NCBI GenBank assembly: GCA_030041335.1
Contig: JASHOB010000071.1
Span: forward strand, 1 to 64,000
Length of the DNA: 64,000 nucleotides
Reading direction: 5' to 3'
Origin: Alphaproteobacteria bacterium
GTDB lineage: Bacteria > Pseudomonadota > Alphaproteobacteria > ATCC43930 > CGMCC-115725
Shown one piece after another: positions 55,521-62,958 of this stretch (position 1 is the first letter of the stretch; each line of letters starts with the position of its first letter). The translations under genes were made by a program, and so were the position numbers. Under the pieces are notes generated by a model. It saw only the letters and a list, made by a program, of their open reading frames with translations, was not told the DNA's origin and did not search any database.

Positions 55521-56372
55521 ATGGCTGAGCTTGCACATCCTGGCACCGACCGGTACTCGATGGCCGAATTCGTTGCGATCGTTCTGGCGCGTCAAGCCGG
55601 CGGCACCGGTGAATGCACCGGCGGCGGCGGTGCCAATCAGGCGGTGGCGCTTGCCGCCAACCGTTTGGCACAGATCACGGTTCGGCCCGACCTCTGGCTG
55701 TTCACCGGCGGCGCCGGCGTCTACAACGGCAAATTCGACACGCTGCCGATCGGCACTTGGGATCCGCGCTGCGGCCATGGCGCGGAGTGCAAAATCTACA
55801 TCGCCGACGTCGTCGACGGCGGTACGCGCGGCGAGCGACCCGGGCACAGTTCGGGTCGGATGCGGCCGGCGGGCTCCGGCGGCTTCGGCGGCATCCAGGT
55901 CGACAAATACGGCAATATCAACATGATCGGCGTCGGCCAATACCCTAAGCTCAAGGTACGCGGTCCGGGTACCGTCGGGACGATCTGGATGGGCTCGGGG
56001 CCGAGCAACGTCTACGTCGAACACCACTCGAAGCGCATCTTTGTCGAGAAGTGCGATTACATCAGCGGCCCCGGTTGGCTTCAAGGCGGCGACAGCCGGC
56101 ATAAGCTCTTGAACGGCCGCGACGGACCGGAATATGTCTGGTCGCCGATCTGCGTCCTCGATTTCACCGAGGACGAGCATCGTGCCCGCATCGCTTCGGT
56201 GCATCCCGGTTACACGGTTGCCGATGTCGTTGCCAATACCGGCTTCGAGTTGGTGGTTCCCAAGGACGTGCCGCAGACTACGCCGCCGACCGATTGGGAG
56301 CTGAATGTGCTGCGCGGCCAGGTTGACCGCAACGGTGTCCTGCGCAAACGGCGAATGACCGTAGGCCTATGA
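55521..56372 (+). CDS. CoA-transferase family I subunit B-like protein (possible IpdB-type)
   Basis: A 283-residue partner of the preceding gene. IQVDKYGNINMIGVGQYPKL, KRIFVEKCDYISGPGW and ASVHPGYTVADVVANTGFEL give the subunit-B plan. I cannot find the SENG/EXG catalytic glutamate of ordinary family I CoA-transferases; the corresponding place reads WLFTGGAGVYNGKF. IpdAB proteins, which hydrolyse a ring in steroid breakdown, also depart from that motif, so a CoA-dependent C-C hydrolase is possible. One base separates its stop from the next start. Confidence 0.83.
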   Translation: MAELAHPGTDRYSMAEFVAIVLARQAGGTGECTGGGGANQAVALAANRLAQITVRPDLWLFTGGAGVYNGKFDTLPIGTWDPRCGHGAECKIYIADVVDGGTRGERPGHSSGRMRPAGSGGFGGIQVDKYGNINMIGVGQYPKLKVRGPGTVGTIWMGSGPSNVYVEHHSKRIFVEKCDYISGPGWLQGGDSRHKLLNGRDGPEYVWSPICVLDFTEDEHRARIASVHPGYTVADVVANTGFELVVPKDVPQTTPPTDWELNVLRGQVDRNGVLRKRRMTVGL

Positions 56373-56373
56373 C

Positions 56374-57918
56374 ATGGAGACGATCGGCGAGACGCTCGCT
56401 CATCAAGCGCGCTGCCAACCGGACCGCGAAGCGCTCAAGGTTGGCGCGCGCAGCCTGACCTGGCGCCAGCTCGACGAGGGCGCCAACCGCGTCGCCAATT
56501 TGCTGCTTGGCCTCGGCGCCAATCCGGGCGACCGGGTGATGATGGTGCTCGGCAACTCGGTCGAGTTCGTCGAGATCTACTATGGGCTTGCCAAAATCGG
56601 GTGCATCAGCGCACCGGTCATGCCGCGTTCGGTCGCCGGCGAAGTGCAATTCATCTGCGACAATCTGCGCGCGCGCTTCATCATCGCCGAGGCAGATTCG
56701 GCGTCGATCGTGCGCGAGCTCGATCACAAGCTCAAATCAGTCGAGCACACGATCGGTGTCGGCGCCGGCCACGGATTGGCACAAGATTACCACCGGCTCA
56801 AGGCCGCCGCCTCGTCCGTCGAGCCGAACACCCGCGTCGCTCCGGACGATATTCTCACCACCAAATTCACCAGCGGCACCACCGGCCTCCCCAAGGGTTG
56901 CCTGCGCTCGCACCGTAATTTCATCATGGCGGCGGCGGTGCTGATGATGGAAATCCCGCTCTACGACAGCGACAGCGCCGTGATCGCCAATCCGCTCGCG
57001 GCCGGCATGGCAGTTTCACAGCTCACCATGTTTGTGCTCAAGGGTATCCGCACGGTCATGCAGGAACGGTTCGAGCCGGCCGAGTATCTCGCGATCGTGG
57101 ATCGGGAAAAGCCGACGCTGCTCTACATGATGGATACGATGATGCGGCGCTGCTTTCCGCTGCCGCAATTCGCCACCACCGACTTCTCCAGCGTGCGGCT
57201 CTATCACGGCGCTGCGTCCCGCGAGGTGATCGACGCGCTGCGGGCGCATCCCCGCTTTCAAGCCGGGTTTTCCTTCGGCTACGCGTCGTCGGAAGCCGGT
57301 GGGCTAGTTACGTTTCGCCTGCCCAGTCATTACGCGCTGGCGCTCGAGCAGCCGGATAAATACGGCTACTTGCTTGAATCCGCGGGGACCGAAGCGCCGC
57401 TGACGCGGATTGCATGCCTCGACGACGAGCTCAAGCCGGTGCCGCAGGGCGAGGTCGGCGAGCTCGCCGTCAGCGGCCCCTCGGTGTTCCGCGGCTATTG
57501 GGAACGACCCGACGAAACCGAAAAAGTGTTGCGCCAAGGCTGGCTGCTCACCGGCGACCTAGCCTACCAGGACGCGGACGGGTTTATTTTTATTCGCGGC
57601 CGCAAGCGCGACATGATCAAGACCGGTGGCGTTAATGTCTATCCCGCAGAGATTGAGCCGGTACTGGAATCGCACCCGAGCGTCGTCGAGGCCGCAGTGG
57701 TCGGGGTACCGGACAAAGAATGGGGCGAGAAGGTGGTTGCCTTCATCATCGCCAAGTCCCCGATCGACGCGCCGGAACTGATCGATTTCTGCCGCGACAA
57801 GCTTGCCGCCTATAAGCGGCCCAAGCAAATCGTCTTTGTCGATGCGTTTCCGATGCGCGCCGGCAAAGTCGTGAAGCGCGATTTGATCCGCATGCTGAGG
57901 GAAGGCCTGGTCCGCTGA
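56374..57918 (+). CDS. Acyl-CoA synthetase/AMP-dependent ligase
   Basis: A 514-residue adenylate-forming enzyme that activates a carboxylic acid with ATP and CoA. The P-loop TSGTTGLPKG, the FGYASSEAGG motif (A5), the hinge GDLAYQDADGFIFIRGRKRD and the C-terminal Lys in MRAGKVVKRDL are all present, so it should be active. It resembles crotonobetaine/carnitine- and cyclohexanecarboxylate-type ligases. The 1-nt gap to the subunit-B gene points to translational coupling and a shared substrate. Confidence 0.92.
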   Translation: METIGETLAHQARCQPDREALKVGARSLTWRQLDEGANRVANLLLGLGANPGDRVMMVLGNSVEFVEIYYGLAKIGCISAPVMPRSVAGEVQFICDNLRARFIIAEADSASIVRELDHKLKSVEHTIGVGAGHGLAQDYHRLKAAASSVEPNTRVAPDDILTTKFTSGTTGLPKGCLRSHRNFIMAAAVLMMEIPLYDSDSAVIANPLAAGMAVSQLTMFVLKGIRTVMQERFEPAEYLAIVDREKPTLLYMMDTMMRRCFPLPQFATTDFSSVRLYHGAASREVIDALRAHPRFQAGFSFGYASSEAGGLVTFRLPSHYALALEQPDKYGYLLESAGTEAPLTRIACLDDELKPVPQGEVGELAVSGPSVFRGYWERPDETEKVLRQGWLLTGDLAYQDADGFIFIRGRKRDMIKTGGVNVYPAEIEPVLESHPSVVEAAVVGVPDKEWGEKVVAFIIAKSPIDAPELIDFCRDKLAAYKRPKQIVFVDAFPMRAGKVVKRDLIRMLREGLVR

Positions 57919-58152: not shown

Positions 58153-60069
58153 ATGGACCGCAGCACCGGCATGTCTCGCTTCCTCATCCGCACGGGAATT
58201 AGGCATAAGATCCTTATTGGTTTCGTCGCCATGGCACTGATGATCGGTGCCTTGGGCGGTTATGGTATTTTCGTGCTCAGCGCGACCGGAGACATGGTCG
58301 CCCGGACCTATGATCGGCCGTTGCTGACGGTGAACTACAGCCGTTTGGCCGGGCAGATCTTCACCCAAATGCGAAGCGAGCTGTTGCACCGCCGCTATGC
58401 CTCGCCCGTGGAAAAGGCGGCGATCGACCGCGTCCTTGCCAAGCTCGCTGAAAGCCTGAGCGAGGATCTTGCCATGGCCCGCGCCCAGGCATTGTCCGAT
58501 CCCGAGCGGGCCGATATCGACGGCATTCAGGACCGCGTGGCCCATTGGAACGAATTGTGGCAGGCGGCGCCCGCCCGTGCCGAGAGCCGCCGGCTCCAGG
58601 ACGTGTCCGCCCAAATTGAGCAATCCTTTGATCAACTGGTGGCGCTAACCATCGATCAAAGCCTGGCCGAGCGCCGCAACGGCCTCTCTGCCATAACCCG
58701 GTTCCAGTCTTGGACAATCGGCGGCATGATCCTGGCGCTCATCATCGCCGGCGCAATTACCTTCTTCCTTGCCCGGCGCATCGTGCGGCCTTTCCGCATG
58801 GCGGTCAGCGTCGCGGACCGCATCGCCGGCGGCCAATTGGATACCGTCATTCCGCGCGGCTTCGGCGACGAGACCGGCGTTCTGCTGCAGTCGATGAGCG
58901 GCATGCGCGACGGTATTCGCGCCATGATGGCGCGCGAGCGGACCCGCCGGCGTGCCGCCGAAACCCGTCTCGCGGATGCGCTTGAAAGCGCCCATGAGGG
59001 CTTGGTGCTGATCGACGCGGGCGGCAACATCGTGATCGCCAACAAGCAGATCGGGGCGTTTTTCCCGCCCTTGGCGCCACTCTGCCGCGAAGGCGTCGAA
59101 TTCTCGGCGGTGACGCGCCTCCTCTATCAGCAATTGTTAAATCCGGAGCAGGTGCCCGACTTGTTCGCTTTGCCGGCGTCCGGTTGTGAGCTCCACCTGG
59201 TCGACAATCGCTGGATCCATGTCAGCTCCAGCCGCACGCGCGATGGTGGCCAGTTCTTTTTCTTCACCGATTTCTCCGACGTCAAGGAGCGTGAGCAGCG
59301 TTATCGCGAAGCCCAGCTTCAGGCCGAAGCCGCAAGCCGCGCCAAATCGAGCTTTGTCGCCAACATGAGCCATGAGTTGCGCACGCCGCTCAACGCGATC
59401 ATCGGCTTTTCCGAAATCATTCAGCGCGAGATGTTCGGCAAGCTCGAGAACCGGAACTATGCCGCCTATATCGCCGATATTCTGCAAAGCGGCCGTCACC
59501 TCCTGGCGATCATCAACGGCGTGCTTGATTTGGCAAAAAGCCAATCCGGCAAGCTGACGGTGCATTTCGAGACGGTCGATCTCGGCCATATCCTGGTCGA
59601 TTGCGCCAATATGATGCGTGATCAATGCAAACGCGGCGAACTGGTCCTGGAATTCACCAAGCCGGCCGGCCAAATGCTCGTCTCGGGAGAGCCTGCGAAA
59701 CTGCGCCAGGTGCTGCTCAACTTACTCTCGAACGCGGTGAAGTTTACCGAGCCCGGCGGACGGGTCGCGCTCAGCGCGCGCGACGAGGGCGACACCATCG
59801 TCGCTGACGTGCGCGACACCGGCATCGGTATGTCGAGCGACGACATCGCGGTCGCGCTGACGCCGTTCGGCCAGGTCGATAACCGGCTGGCCCGCCGTTT
59901 CGACGGCACCGGTCTCGGCTTGCCGCTGGCAAAGGAACTGATCGAGCTGCACCGCGGCACGCTCATCATCCGCAGCGAGCCGGGACGCGGCTCGACGATC
60001 TCCGTCGTTCTACCGAAGCTGTCTCCGACCGAGGCGACCGCGGCCGCGGACGACGCGATCGCGGCCTAG
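58153..60069 (+). CDS. Membrane-bound sensor histidine kinase (HAMP-PAS-HisKA-HATPase)
   Basis: A 638-residue kinase. Membrane helices lie at about residues 20-42 and 187-208, enclosing a 145-residue periplasmic helical sensor; a HAMP domain follows, then a degenerate PAS domain (EGLVLIDAGGNIVIANKQ). The phospho-acceptor His407 is in MSHELRTPLNAI; NLLSNAVKF, DTGIGM and GTGLGLPLA are the ATP-binding N, G1 and G2 boxes. There is no receiver domain and no response regulator nearby, so the partner is encoded elsewhere. Resembles the PleC/DivJ-like alphaproteobacterial HisKA family in its core. Signal unknown. Confidence 0.92.
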   Translation: MDRSTGMSRFLIRTGIRHKILIGFVAMALMIGALGGYGIFVLSATGDMVARTYDRPLLTVNYSRLAGQIFTQMRSELLHRRYASPVEKAAIDRVLAKLAESLSEDLAMARAQALSDPERADIDGIQDRVAHWNELWQAAPARAESRRLQDVSAQIEQSFDQLVALTIDQSLAERRNGLSAITRFQSWTIGGMILALIIAGAITFFLARRIVRPFRMAVSVADRIAGGQLDTVIPRGFGDETGVLLQSMSGMRDGIRAMMARERTRRRAAETRLADALESAHEGLVLIDAGGNIVIANKQIGAFFPPLAPLCREGVEFSAVTRLLYQQLLNPEQVPDLFALPASGCELHLVDNRWIHVSSSRTRDGGQFFFFTDFSDVKEREQRYREAQLQAEAASRAKSSFVANMSHELRTPLNAIIGFSEIIQREMFGKLENRNYAAYIADILQSGRHLLAIINGVLDLAKSQSGKLTVHFETVDLGHILVDCANMMRDQCKRGELVLEFTKPAGQMLVSGEPAKLRQVLLNLLSNAVKFTEPGGRVALSARDEGDTIVADVRDTGIGMSSDDIAVALTPFGQVDNRLARRFDGTGLGLPLAKELIELHRGTLIIRSEPGRGSTISVVLPKLSPTEATAAADDAIAA

Positions 60070-61227
60070 CTATTCCGCGGCGGCCCGTTTCGCCGGCTGC
60101 GGCACCCGATCGCCGAAATAGGGCAATACTTCCTCGGCCACTGCCGCCTGGTTCACCACCGCCATCTCATGGGGCATGGTGCCGAACTGGGTCTTGGTCA
60201 GCGAATAGCCGAAACCGGCGAGGTCCTGGTAAGCCGCGAGCTTTTCCCTGACGGTATTGGGACTGCCGACGATCACGGTACCGAGATCGATGAGATCATC
60301 GGGCGTCTGCGGCCGGCTGCGGCCCATGCTGCGCTGCCGCTTCACCGATTCAAGGCTGCTATAGCCCGGCGGCGACATCATTACCGGATTCATCTTGAAG
60401 AATTTGCCATAGGATTCGAGATAGGGTCGCGCCTCGCGCCTTGCCTTCTCGTCGGTTTCGGCGATGTAAATGGCGTTGGACCAAGCGAGTTGATCGGGCG
60501 AGGCCTGGTAGCCGCATTTGTCGGCTTCCTCGCGGAAAATATCAAACACGCGGGCCACCGATGCGATCGGGGCCAGGGTCTGGCAATAAGTATAGCGCTT
60601 TGCTGCCGACCAGCGGATGGTGCTGATCGATCCGGAAGATGGCGTCCAGATTGGCGGATGTGGCTTCTGATATGGCACCGGCCAGGGGTTGACGTAGCGC
60701 AAATTGAAGAATTTGCCGTCGAAGGCGAACGGGCCGGGCCGCGTCCAGGCCTGCACGATCAGATCATGGGCCTCGACGAAGCGCGGGTTGGATTCGGCTG
60801 GATTGACGCCCATGGAATGGTATTCGGCGCCGATGCCGCGGACAAAGCCGGCGATCACCCGGCCGCGTGTGATGTTGTCGAGGATGGCGTATTCCTCGGC
60901 GATGGTCAGCGGATTGTTTACCAGCGGCAAGGCGCGACCGAGGATGGCGAGCTTGCCGCGCTTGATCTTGCGCGACAGCGCACCGGCGAGCACGCCCGGC
61001 ACCGGCATCATGCCGTAGGCCGTCTGGTGATGCTCGTTGACGCACACTCCGTCGAAGCCAAGTTCGTCGGCCTTTTCGAGTTCATCGAGATACTGATTGA
61101 ACAGTTCGGCGCCCTTGACCGGGTCGTAGTGACTGTTGGAGTAGGTGACCCACGCGGAACCGCCTTTGTCGATCGCGTCGAGATCGGCATGGGCGTATGG
61201 CATCAGATGAAAATTGAATATTTTCAT
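60070..61227 (-). CDS. LLM-class flavin-dependent oxidoreductase (luciferase-like monooxygenase)
   Basis: A 385-residue monooxygenase of the bacterial luciferase superfamily using FMNH2 and O2. EKADELGFDGVCVNEHHQTA and LGRALPLVNNPLTIAEEYAI with LDNITRGRVIAGFVRGIGAEY are the diagnostic blocks. The ATG at 61227 is backed by AGAGGG upstream; a longer frame runs back into the neighbouring gene and is spurious. It starts inside the end of the alpha/beta hydrolase gene (4-nt overlap). A separate flavin reductase would be needed; none is adjacent. Substrate unknown. Confidence 0.92.
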   Translation of the reverse strand: MKIFNFHLMPYAHADLDAIDKGGSAWVTYSNSHYDPVKGAELFNQYLDELEKADELGFDGVCVNEHHQTAYGMMPVPGVLAGALSRKIKRGKLAILGRALPLVNNPLTIAEEYAILDNITRGRVIAGFVRGIGAEYHSMGVNPAESNPRFVEAHDLIVQAWTRPGPFAFDGKFFNLRYVNPWPVPYQKPHPPIWTPSSGSISTIRWSAAKRYTYCQTLAPIASVARVFDIFREEADKCGYQASPDQLAWSNAIYIAETDEKARREARPYLESYGKFFKMNPVMMSPPGYSSLESVKRQRSMGRSRPQTPDDLIDLGTVIVGSPNTVREKLAAYQDLAGFGYSLTKTQFGTMPHEMAVVNQAAVAEEVLPYFGDRVPQPAKRAAAE

Positions 61228-62015
61228 GTCGCGGCCCTCTGTTGCGCGATGAAATCGTGGACGATACCGGCAGTCTCCAGCGGTTGTTCGACATGCGGCC
61301 AATGCCCCGCATTCGCCACCGCGACCAGCCGCGACCCGGGAATGGCGGCTTGCCACGCGGCAGCATAGGGGGTCGGCAACAGGCGGTCCTCCCGGCCCCA
61401 CACGATCAGGGTCGGCACATCGATGCGGTGGAGCCATTTTCCCAGTTGCGGATCAAAAAGGCGCGGCTGCCAGGCCAGTTTTGCCGTCATCATCCTGCCC
61501 TTGAGCAACGCGTCTTCGGCCTCTGGCGCGAGCAGGCGCGCCACCAAGGGTTCGGCCTTTTTGGGATCGAAAGACAGGTCGTAAAGCGCCTGCTCGTCCG
61601 TGCGCGCGAACAGGTCGATGCCGCCGGCGCCGTCGACCCGCAACCCCCAGGGATCGATCAGCGTCAGCGAGGCAAGCCGCGTGGTGTTGCGCGTCGCCAG
61701 TTCGGCCGCGATCCAGCCGCCGAGCGCGGCGCCGACGAGGTGGACGCGCGCCAAATCGAGTTGCGTCAGGGCGTCGAGATAGAAATTGGCGAGGTCGGTG
61801 ACCCGATCGAGCCAGGGTGGCGCGTCGCCGCCACCGTAACCGGGATGCTCAAGGAGAATCACCTCGAAATGCTCGGCAAGGCGGTCGTGAAACGGCAGCC
61901 AGGCGGCCCCGAGATGGGCATCGGGAGAAAACACTACCGATGCCCCCACGCCCGCGCGTTGGAGACGAAGATCGACATTGCACGCTTGAATGGCAACGTT
62001 GGCACTACCCGGCAT
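61224..62015 (-). CDS. Alpha/beta hydrolase-fold protein with alanine at the nucleophile position
   Basis: A 263-residue alpha/beta hydrolase. The fold is clear: VILLEHPGYGGGDAPPW, then ARVHLVGAALGGWIAAELA and the C-terminal WGREDRLLP (Asp210) and NAGHWPHVEQP (His238). The nucleophile elbow reads G-A-A97-L-G, so the expected Ser is Ala, although the acid and histidine remain. It may be inactive as a hydrolase, act by another route such as cofactor-free oxygenation or lyase chemistry, or serve as a binding protein. It overlaps the flavin monooxygenase gene by 4 nt, so the two are probably needed together. Divergent from the methyltransferase gene, 88 bp away. Confidence 0.88.
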   Translation of the reverse strand: MPGSANVAIQACNVDLRLQRAGVGASVVFSPDAHLGAAWLPFHDRLAEHFEVILLEHPGYGGGDAPPWLDRVTDLANFYLDALTQLDLARVHLVGAALGGWIAAELATRNTTRLASLTLIDPWGLRVDGAGGIDLFARTDEQALYDLSFDPKKAEPLVARLLAPEAEDALLKGRMMTAKLAWQPRLFDPQLGKWLHRIDVPTLIVWGREDRLLPTPYAAAWQAAIPGSRLVAVANAGHWPHVEQPLETAGIVHDFIAQQRAAT

Positions 62016-62103: not shown

Positions 62104-62958
62104 ATGAAAAACGCGGCCGAATTTCATCAGGACATGGTTGCATATTGGAGCGGTGCCGGCGGCGATCGCTGGATCGGCGAAAGTGCCCGCACCGAAGCGA
62201 TGCTGTCGCGCGTCGCCGAACTGCTCTATGTCCGCGCACGGCTGCATCCGGGCCTGATCGTGCTCGATGTCGGCTGTGGCCTCGGACCGACCACGCTGGA
62301 GCTGGCGCACCGCGTGGCGCCAGCCGGCCGCGCCGTCGGTCTCGACGTGTCACCGGAAATGGTCGGGCGCGCGCGCCAGCGTGCCGCCGGCGTGGCCAAT
62401 ATCGAATTCATCCTCGGCGATGCCGCGTCGCATAATTTCCCGGCACCATTTGCCGACCTGCTGTTCTCGCGCTTCGGGGTGATGTTCTTTGGCGATCCGG
62501 TGGCCGCGTTCGCCAATCTTCGCCGGGCGCTCAAACCCAACGGCCGAATGCTATTCGCCTGCTGGCGCCGGCTGAGCGAAAACCCGTGGATGCTGACGCC
62601 GCTCCTCGCCGCCTATGAGCACGTGCCCCGCCTGCCGCCGGCCGAGCCCAACGAGCCCGGCCCGTTCGCGTTCGCCGATCCCGACCGCGTCGGCGCCGTT
62701 CTGACCGCCGCCGGCTTTGCCAAGCCGAGCTTCGCCGCCGCCGAGCTCACCTTCGATGTCGCGGGCGGCGCTGGCATGGATGCCGCCGTACGTCAGACCA
62801 TGAGCATCGGCGCCACCAGCCGCGCCCTGCAAGATCAGCCGCAATCCGTCCGCGACGCCGCCGCGGGGTCGATCCGCAAGGCGCTGGCGCCATACGCCAG
62901 GGACACGCATGTCGAGCTCCCCGGCGCGATCTGGCTGGTGGAAAGCAGGATTGCCTAG
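62104..62958 (+). CDS. Class I SAM-dependent methyltransferase
   Basis: A 284-residue methyltransferase. LIVLDVGCGLGPTTLELAHRV is motif I for SAM binding, AVGLDVSPEMVGRARQRAAG gives the acidic ribose contact, and FILGDAASHNFPAPFADLLF and RFGVMFFGDPVAAFANLRRAL complete the UbiE/Methyltransf_11 plan. The ATG at 62104 follows GGGAAG. Substrate cannot be told. It faces away from the monooxygenase/hydrolase pair and may share its control region. Confidence 0.88.
   Translation: MKNAAEFHQDMVAYWSGAGGDRWIGESARTEAMLSRVAELLYVRARLHPGLIVLDVGCGLGPTTLELAHRVAPAGRAVGLDVSPEMVGRARQRAAGVANIEFILGDAASHNFPAPFADLLFSRFGVMFFGDPVAAFANLRRALKPNGRMLFACWRRLSENPWMLTPLLAAYEHVPRLPPAEPNEPGPFAFADPDRVGAVLTAAGFAKPSFAAAELTFDVAGGAGMDAAVRQTMSIGATSRALQDQPQSVRDAAAGSIRKALAPYARDTHVELPGAIWLVESRIA

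Follow-up and report, generated by a model that had tools for sequence, protein, structure and literature searches.

Replacement of the nucleophile in alpha/beta-hydrolase-fold proteins encoded beside a luciferase-like monooxygenase: serine, alanine, glycine and aspartate among relatives of one gene pair

Results

A hydrolase-fold gene with alanine at the nucleophile elbow

The DNA analyzed here, referred to as the window, is a stretch of 64,000 nucleotides from an alphaproteobacterial contig. Its reverse strand carries a gene for an alpha/beta-hydrolase-fold protein, followed directly by a gene for a luciferase-like monooxygenase (LLM); these genes and the residues discussed below are located in Table 1. 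The hydrolase-fold protein matches the Abhydrolase_1 profile with 87.8 bits, compared with a cut-off of 25.8, and its predicted fold shows the canonical strand-turn-helix at residues 91-109, around residue 97. However, the protein reads GAALGG where GxSxG is expected. In addition, the loop that usually bears His-Gly reads S-P-D-A-H; i.e., the His-Gly oxyanion motif after strand 3 is absent. Judged as a serine hydrolase, then, the protein possesses the acid and the His of the triad, and lacks both the elbow Ser and the His-Gly oxyanion motif. A preliminary description had placed the G-A-A-L-G elbow within positions 61701-61740, with Asp210 and His238 remaining; both statements hold, at the exact sites given in Table 1. 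The same description considered that a Ser elsewhere in the pocket might act as the nucleophile, but the sequences show no evident substitute Ser or Cys: the one residue of either kind common to both Ala-bearing species is Ser116, which sits in the core strand 114-120 of the model.

Table 1. Features of the hydrolase-LLM locus in the window.
Feature	Position	Strand	Basis
Partner luciferase-like monooxygenase (LLM; Bac_luciferase)	60070..61227	-	Profile match
ATGA stop/start overlap, hydrolase/LLM (hydrolase stop TGA 61224-61226, LLM start ATG 61225-61227)	61224..61227	-
Alpha/beta-hydrolase-fold protein, 263 aa, nucleophile replaced by Ala	61224..62015	-	ORF, Abhydrolase_1 profile, predicted fold (mean pLDDT 94.1)
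His238, catalytic base, kept	61302..61304	-	Sequence and column comparison
Asp210, catalytic acid, kept	61386..61388	-	Sequence and column comparison
Nucleophile elbow G95-A96-A97-L98-G99 (GGC GCC GCG CTC GGC)	61719..61733	-	ORF translation, homologue alignment
Ala97 codon GCG (TCG, Ser, in same-genus G001)	61725..61727	-	Codon comparison
Former oxyanion loop, residues 31-35 (P-D-A-H-L), Asp32 now present; LHG in most relatives	61911..61925	-	Alignment
SAM methyltransferase gene, divergent; similar gene adjoins the pair in G002; flank, membership in the unit not established	62104..62958	+	Profile match

The 4-nt overlap between the two genes, also reported in the preliminary description, is real. 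It had been taken there as a sign that the altered protein is retained for a purpose. Among the aligned homologues (rows) described below, the ATGA overlap is found in 21 of 21 without the elbow Ser, but also in 41 of the 60 that have it, and is therefore no argument for a special role of the altered protein. Convergent with the LLM gene lies a gene that by eye resembles a membrane sensor histidine kinase (58153-60069), in the place where relatives have a second esterase gene. Further away (55521-57918), a CoA-transferase-like subunit is followed one base on by an acyl-CoA ligase gene on the same strand. The window's own genome holds at least two further hydrolase-LLM neighbours with Ser.

The replacement is shared by a second species of the genus

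The same GAALGG is encoded in another genome of the genus, G002 (loci L009 and L038), with one motif codon different (GGC GCG GCG CTC), and a third species, G001 (L010), has GASLGG, with TCG in place of the window's GCG. In the one remaining genome of the genus, G003, which is 61% complete, there is no LLM of the window's clade. The preliminary description would have ascribed the Ala to a single mutation or a read error if all close homologues had Ser; instead, Ala is found at 74% identity (G002) and Ser at 62% (G001). The Ala97 replacement is thus real, and reflects neither chance nor a read error. The Ser codon is TCN in all 60 Ser rows examined. Ala is one base step from Ser, and Gly or Asp is one step from Ala, which would be consistent with changes in that order.

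The residue at position 97 varies within the window's clade

Relatives were collected from 61 genomes, 27 of them with a match at E 1e-30, and from a species-level genome collection (best 80 of 369), the search of which requires exact short peptides and so misses distant members. After removal of repeats, 121 distinct hydrolases were compared. An LLM gene lies directly downstream on the same strand in 98 of these; among the other 23, some carry an LLM gene at another place in the surrounding sequence. For hydrolases whose downstream LLM shares at least 60% identity with that of the window, the elbow residue is Ser in 11, Asp in 10, Gly in 8 and Ala in 3; in the remaining 89 homologues it is Ser in 87, Cys in 1 and Asp in 1. 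These counts are not population frequencies, as some searches were centred on families already known to contain non-Ser members. The idea that Ala might be the rule beside LLM genes, which the preliminary description had proposed to check, is rejected: Ser is present in 77 of the 98 LLM-adjacent homologues, and the window's clade has Ala, Gly, Asp or Ser.

A later sample of 323 genomes from one other family yielded 20 relatives of the LLM, at least one of which (L131) was already in the earlier set. A hydrolase gene is located upstream in 15 of them, always with Ser and always with LHG; nucleophile loss is therefore limited to certain lineages. No such gene was found upstream in the other 5, one of which has only 75 nt of upstream sequence. 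A search of 385 genomes from the class, which scored few candidates in each, gave an LLM match at E 1e-165 or better in the window's own genome and in no other. Likewise, among 299 genomes of one Variovorax-bearing family the LLM match came only from the query's own genome.

Several other arrangements were encountered. Three loci, from as many genomes of the window's family (L121, L122 and L123), encode a 68-70% identical LLM with a different gene upstream: another hydrolase, with GHSLGG, in one, and genes that by eye are peptidase/amidohydrolase-like in two. Two distant homologues, L034 1504-2280 and L027 1474-2217, have no LLM directly downstream; one has a Cys elbow (GACMG) and an LLM-like gene upstream, and the other an Asp elbow (GADFG) with no LLM found in the surrounding sequence. 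In one genome, the Gly-type pair is preceded, some 5.6 kb upstream, by a second hydrolase-LLM pair with Ser (GSSFG; L170 1596-3616, forward strand).

The catalytic dyad is kept and the oxyanion loop is altered

Twenty-one columns are invariant in the 49 outer Ser rows. For twenty of these, at least 19 of the 21 non-Ser rows retain the residue; the only one lost is Ser97 (0 of 21). His238 is kept in all 21 non-Ser rows and Asp210 in 20. The exception is L155 (2655-3443, reverse strand), a Gly-type protein in which Asp210 has become Asn; with its catalytic acid also lost and an LLM gene adjacent, it is the most eroded member seen.

The oxyanion loop differs between the lineages. His31 is missing from the Ala/Gly rows (0 of 11), whereas every Asp row (10 of 10) and most Ser rows (55 of 60) have it. 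Within residues 31-34, each of the 11 Ala/Gly rows has an Asp, at position 32 in four (the window, L009, L154 and L155) and at position 34 in the other seven. An Asp or Glu in this loop is found in 2 of 10 Asp rows and in 3 of the 57 Ser rows outside a clade of 14 rows defined below; this pattern was spotted post hoc, and the rows are related by descent, so that Fisher values overstate the evidence. Of the three Ser rows that belong to the clade, two already carry a loop Asp or Glu, from which we infer that the loop was altered before the serine was lost. Seven Ala/Gly rows outside the window's genus have a Ser at loop position 36.

The gene is constrained, perhaps less tightly than in Ser-bearing pairs

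The reading frame is open in all 21 non-Ser rows, with a length of 257-265 aa. For the hydrolase gene, dN/dS is 0.08-0.38 in 10 non-Ser pairs of the same state, 0.25-0.40 in 3 mixed pairs and 0.09-0.62 in 16 Ser pairs, values in which synonymous change is partly saturated and to which some members contribute more than once. Neither frameshifts nor dN/dS values near 1 were seen in the non-Ser rows. Measured against its LLM, the hydrolase evolves faster in the non-Ser pairs, with a median dN ratio of about 3.5 (10 pairs) versus about 2.2 (16 Ser pairs; Mann-Whitney p 0.019), a comparison in which pairs share members and two of the Ser pairs rest on LLM fragments. Together, the low dN/dS and the faster change indicate a gene that is constrained, though perhaps less tightly.

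Trees require repeated change

In a tree of the hydrolases (81 rows), the four states require 5 changes. A single clade of all 21 non-Ser hydrolases is rejected with p-AU 0.011, and one of the 11 Ala/Gly hydrolases with p-AU 0.031; both tests used groups defined by the residue, and were run on a quick tree after it had been seen. The tree of the partner LLMs is better resolved. There, one starred clade comprises 14 rows (Gly 8, Ala 3, Ser 3), and the 10 Asp rows form another starred clade; the window pair falls inside a starred trio with the Ser-bearing species G001. Between the Ser and non-Ser states, the starred branches force at least 3 changes, with a bootstrap range of 3-4, in a direction that this tree leaves unfixed. 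If Ser is ancestral, it follows that there were at least two losses, one in the 14-row clade and one in the Asp clade; within the former, Ser may also have been regained.

Different lineages have different neighbours

In 9 of the 11 Ala/Gly rows, the LLM gene is directly followed by a gene for a relative of BD-FAE/Abhydrolase_3 esterases, with a GHSAG serine as read in the copy at L172. It is absent from the remaining two rows, the window and the sister locus L009, and the best relatives of this esterase in the window's genome are 37% and 36% identical. The second esterase was found behind the LLM in none of the 60 Ser rows, 10 of which have less than 1800 nt of downstream sequence, and in none of the 20 LLM relatives of the 323-genome sample, four of which have less than 1100 nt. 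In two of the 10 Asp rows, a distant relative with 36-39% identity is encoded on the opposite strand. As an explanation for the window itself, the second esterase fails, there being no such gene at its locus; the idea that an esterase took over the hydrolytic function applies to the window's relatives only.

An FMN reductase gene is present in the surrounding sequence in 10 of 10 Asp rows versus 2 of 60 Ser rows; it lies upstream of the hydrolase in five mapped Asp loci, and in L177 it matches Pfam FMN_red. These neighbours support an FMNH2-dependent LLM in the Asp lineage. All eight matches of the Pigmentiphaga family (L138-L145) combine an Asp elbow with an FMN reductase gene nearby, and are possibly true Asp-nucleophile enzymes. 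Class II aldolase genes lie alongside 6 Gly rows and one Ser row.

Comparison with known systems

Among the matches listed, the nearest solved folds include CarC (1j1i; Z 31.2, rmsd 2.2 over 245 residues), BphD (2og1; Z 29.9, rmsd 2.4, 257 residues), DxnB2 (4lxg; Z 29.6) and HsaD (2wud; Z 28.8, rmsd 2.5, 254 residues), where matches within 1 Z are tied, lipases and esterases fall in the same range, and identity is about 18-26%. The protein thus has its fold in common with the meta-cleavage-product C-C hydrolases (CarC, BphD, HsaD, CumD, DxnB2, MhpC), and its His and Asp positions match those of HsaD in a sequence alignment. These hydrolases have a Ser nucleophile, however, in contrast to Ala97, and the Ala structures listed are described as mutants. 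In pyrimidine utilization, RutA and RutD are an LLM-family oxygenase and a hydrolase encoded in one operon; the window pair resembles this arrangement, but its hydrolase-fold protein scores 60.4 bits with the RutD model (TIGR03611), below the cut-off of 238.5. Epoxide hydrolases and haloalkane dehalogenases have a GxDxG motif. GxDLG and an intact oxyanion His are found in the related Pigmentiphaga/Variovorax lineage, whereas the elbow residue in the window is Ala.

According to PMC10548524, the cofactor-free dioxygenases HOD and QDO work with a His-Asp dyad for which the Ser is dispensable, and AqdC and others have a natural Ala; that is, a natural Ser-to-Ala replacement with a kept dyad is already known from AqdC. 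The dyad and the dispensable nucleophile are features that HOD and AqdC have in common with the window protein, by residues only. In HOD, the acid Asp126 lies 25 residues after Ser101 (numbering of PMC10548524), whereas Asp210 lies 113 residues after position 97, so by that mark the window protein is not of the HOD family. None of the matches listed in the sequence and structure comparisons is labelled a dioxygenase, which does not in itself exclude kinship. In NDRG3, according to PMC7022630, the complete triad is lost and helices block the pocket. The NDRG proteins resemble the window protein in having a non-reactive residue in place of the nucleophile; in NDRG3, however, the whole triad is replaced, whereas the window protein keeps the acid and the base. 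No paper on this hydrolase-LLM pair was recognized among the titles and abstract openings of the literature searched.

Discussion

The reading that we favor, with a probability of roughly 0.4, is that a covalent hydrolase has become an enzyme of the LLM pathway that works through a His-Asp dyad and has no nucleophile. Its ancestor would be a serine alpha/beta-hydrolase in a two-gene unit with an FMN-dependent luciferase-like monooxygenase. The oxyanion loop would have changed first, His/Gly being replaced and Asp introduced; the nucleophile would then have been lost, from Ser to Ala and further to Gly, and separately to Asp. With covalent acyl-enzyme hydrolysis gone, the His238-Asp210 dyad, assisted by the new pocket carboxylate, would most likely provide general acid/base catalysis for a step that acts on the LLM's substrate or product; this might be a proton transfer or a tautomerase, lyase or direct-water reaction. 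Ester hydrolysis may, in some lineages, have passed to the second serine esterase encoded behind the LLM. The complete scenario, in which the covalent machinery was dismantled stepwise, beginning with the loop and continuing with the change of Ser to Ala, Gly or Asp, and was remade into a non-covalent site of His-Asp and a pocket carboxylate, with a second esterase recruited in some lineages for the old task, seems to us unlikely to hold in full.

From established chemistry, no usual acyl-enzyme cycle would be expected of a protein in which the nucleophile and the oxyanion His are absent and a carboxylate is located in the loop. Retention of the dyad suggests general acid-base catalysis of the type found in cofactor-free dioxygenases. 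Taken by itself, this retention is weak evidence, most invariant columns being kept anyway. Counting against a dyad enzyme are the absence of the second esterase at the window locus; L155, whose loss of Asp210 better fits a non-catalytic role; and the faster change of the hydrolase relative to the LLM, which also fits partial relaxation. The preliminary description had proposed that the altered protein is retained for a purpose. Purifying selection in several lineages and the tie to the LLM gene speak for this, while Ala is not the conserved state. As to what the purpose could be, either non-hydrolytic chemistry, which it suggested, or a binding role appears to be the best fit.

The main rival to the dyad enzyme is that the protein is a pseudoenzyme, i.e., a non-catalytic partner of the LLM (a stabilizing subunit, chaperone or ligand holder) whose balance with the LLM is set by translation coupling through the ATGA overlap. 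We regard this as rather unlikely, although it fits an LLM clade that is unchanged whatever residue is at position 97, for the overlap in every non-Ser row, for the variation among Ala, Gly and Asp, for L155, and for the addition of a second esterase to the gene string in most Ala/Gly rows. Against it, His238 is kept in all non-Ser rows and Asp210 in all but one, in contrast to NDRG3, which is without the whole triad (PMC7022630). Members with Ser and an apparently complete triad, moreover, have the same LLM clade, and some LLM relatives have no such hydrolase upstream (5 of the 20, one with little upstream sequence, and three in the window's family); the LLM is therefore not strictly dependent on the hydrolase.

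Improbable, in our assessment, is that a new nucleophile has taken over, either the loop Asp, which is Asp32 in the window and Asp34 elsewhere, or, in the Asp lineage, Asp97, as in epoxide hydrolases and haloalkane dehalogenases. Every non-Ser row does have an Asp at position 97 (10) or in the loop (11), the oxyanion His is intact throughout the Asp lineage, and epoxide hydrolases and one haloalkane dehalogenase are among the structural relatives. The loop Asp, however, occupies two different positions, and for a Ser or Cys nucleophile the only candidate shared by both Ala species is the core-strand Ser116. We know of no covalent Asp nucleophile that originates from an oxyanion loop. Slightly less probable still is a decaying relic that has lost its role and drifts along with the LLM. 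The faster change relative to the LLM, the four different residues at position 97 and the altered loop would all be expected of such a relic, but intact frames, dN/dS values like those of Ser pairs, the retention of 20 of 21 family-invariant columns and the confidently predicted fold (pLDDT 94.1) are not. Finally, a sequencing or assembly error in one genome can be dismissed: GCG and TCG differ by one base, but the same Ala is carried by G002, the genome of a separate species at 74% protein identity and with another motif codon changed.

The alpha/beta-hydrolase fold, among the largest of enzyme folds, has the nucleophile as its defining residue. At this position, relatives of one gene pair have Ser, Ala, Gly or Asp, and Ser and Ala occur within one genus. 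Because the dyad and the LLM partner are nearly constant, these sister proteins allow a direct test of a path from covalent to non-covalent chemistry. The annotation of these genes as hydrolases is probably wrong.
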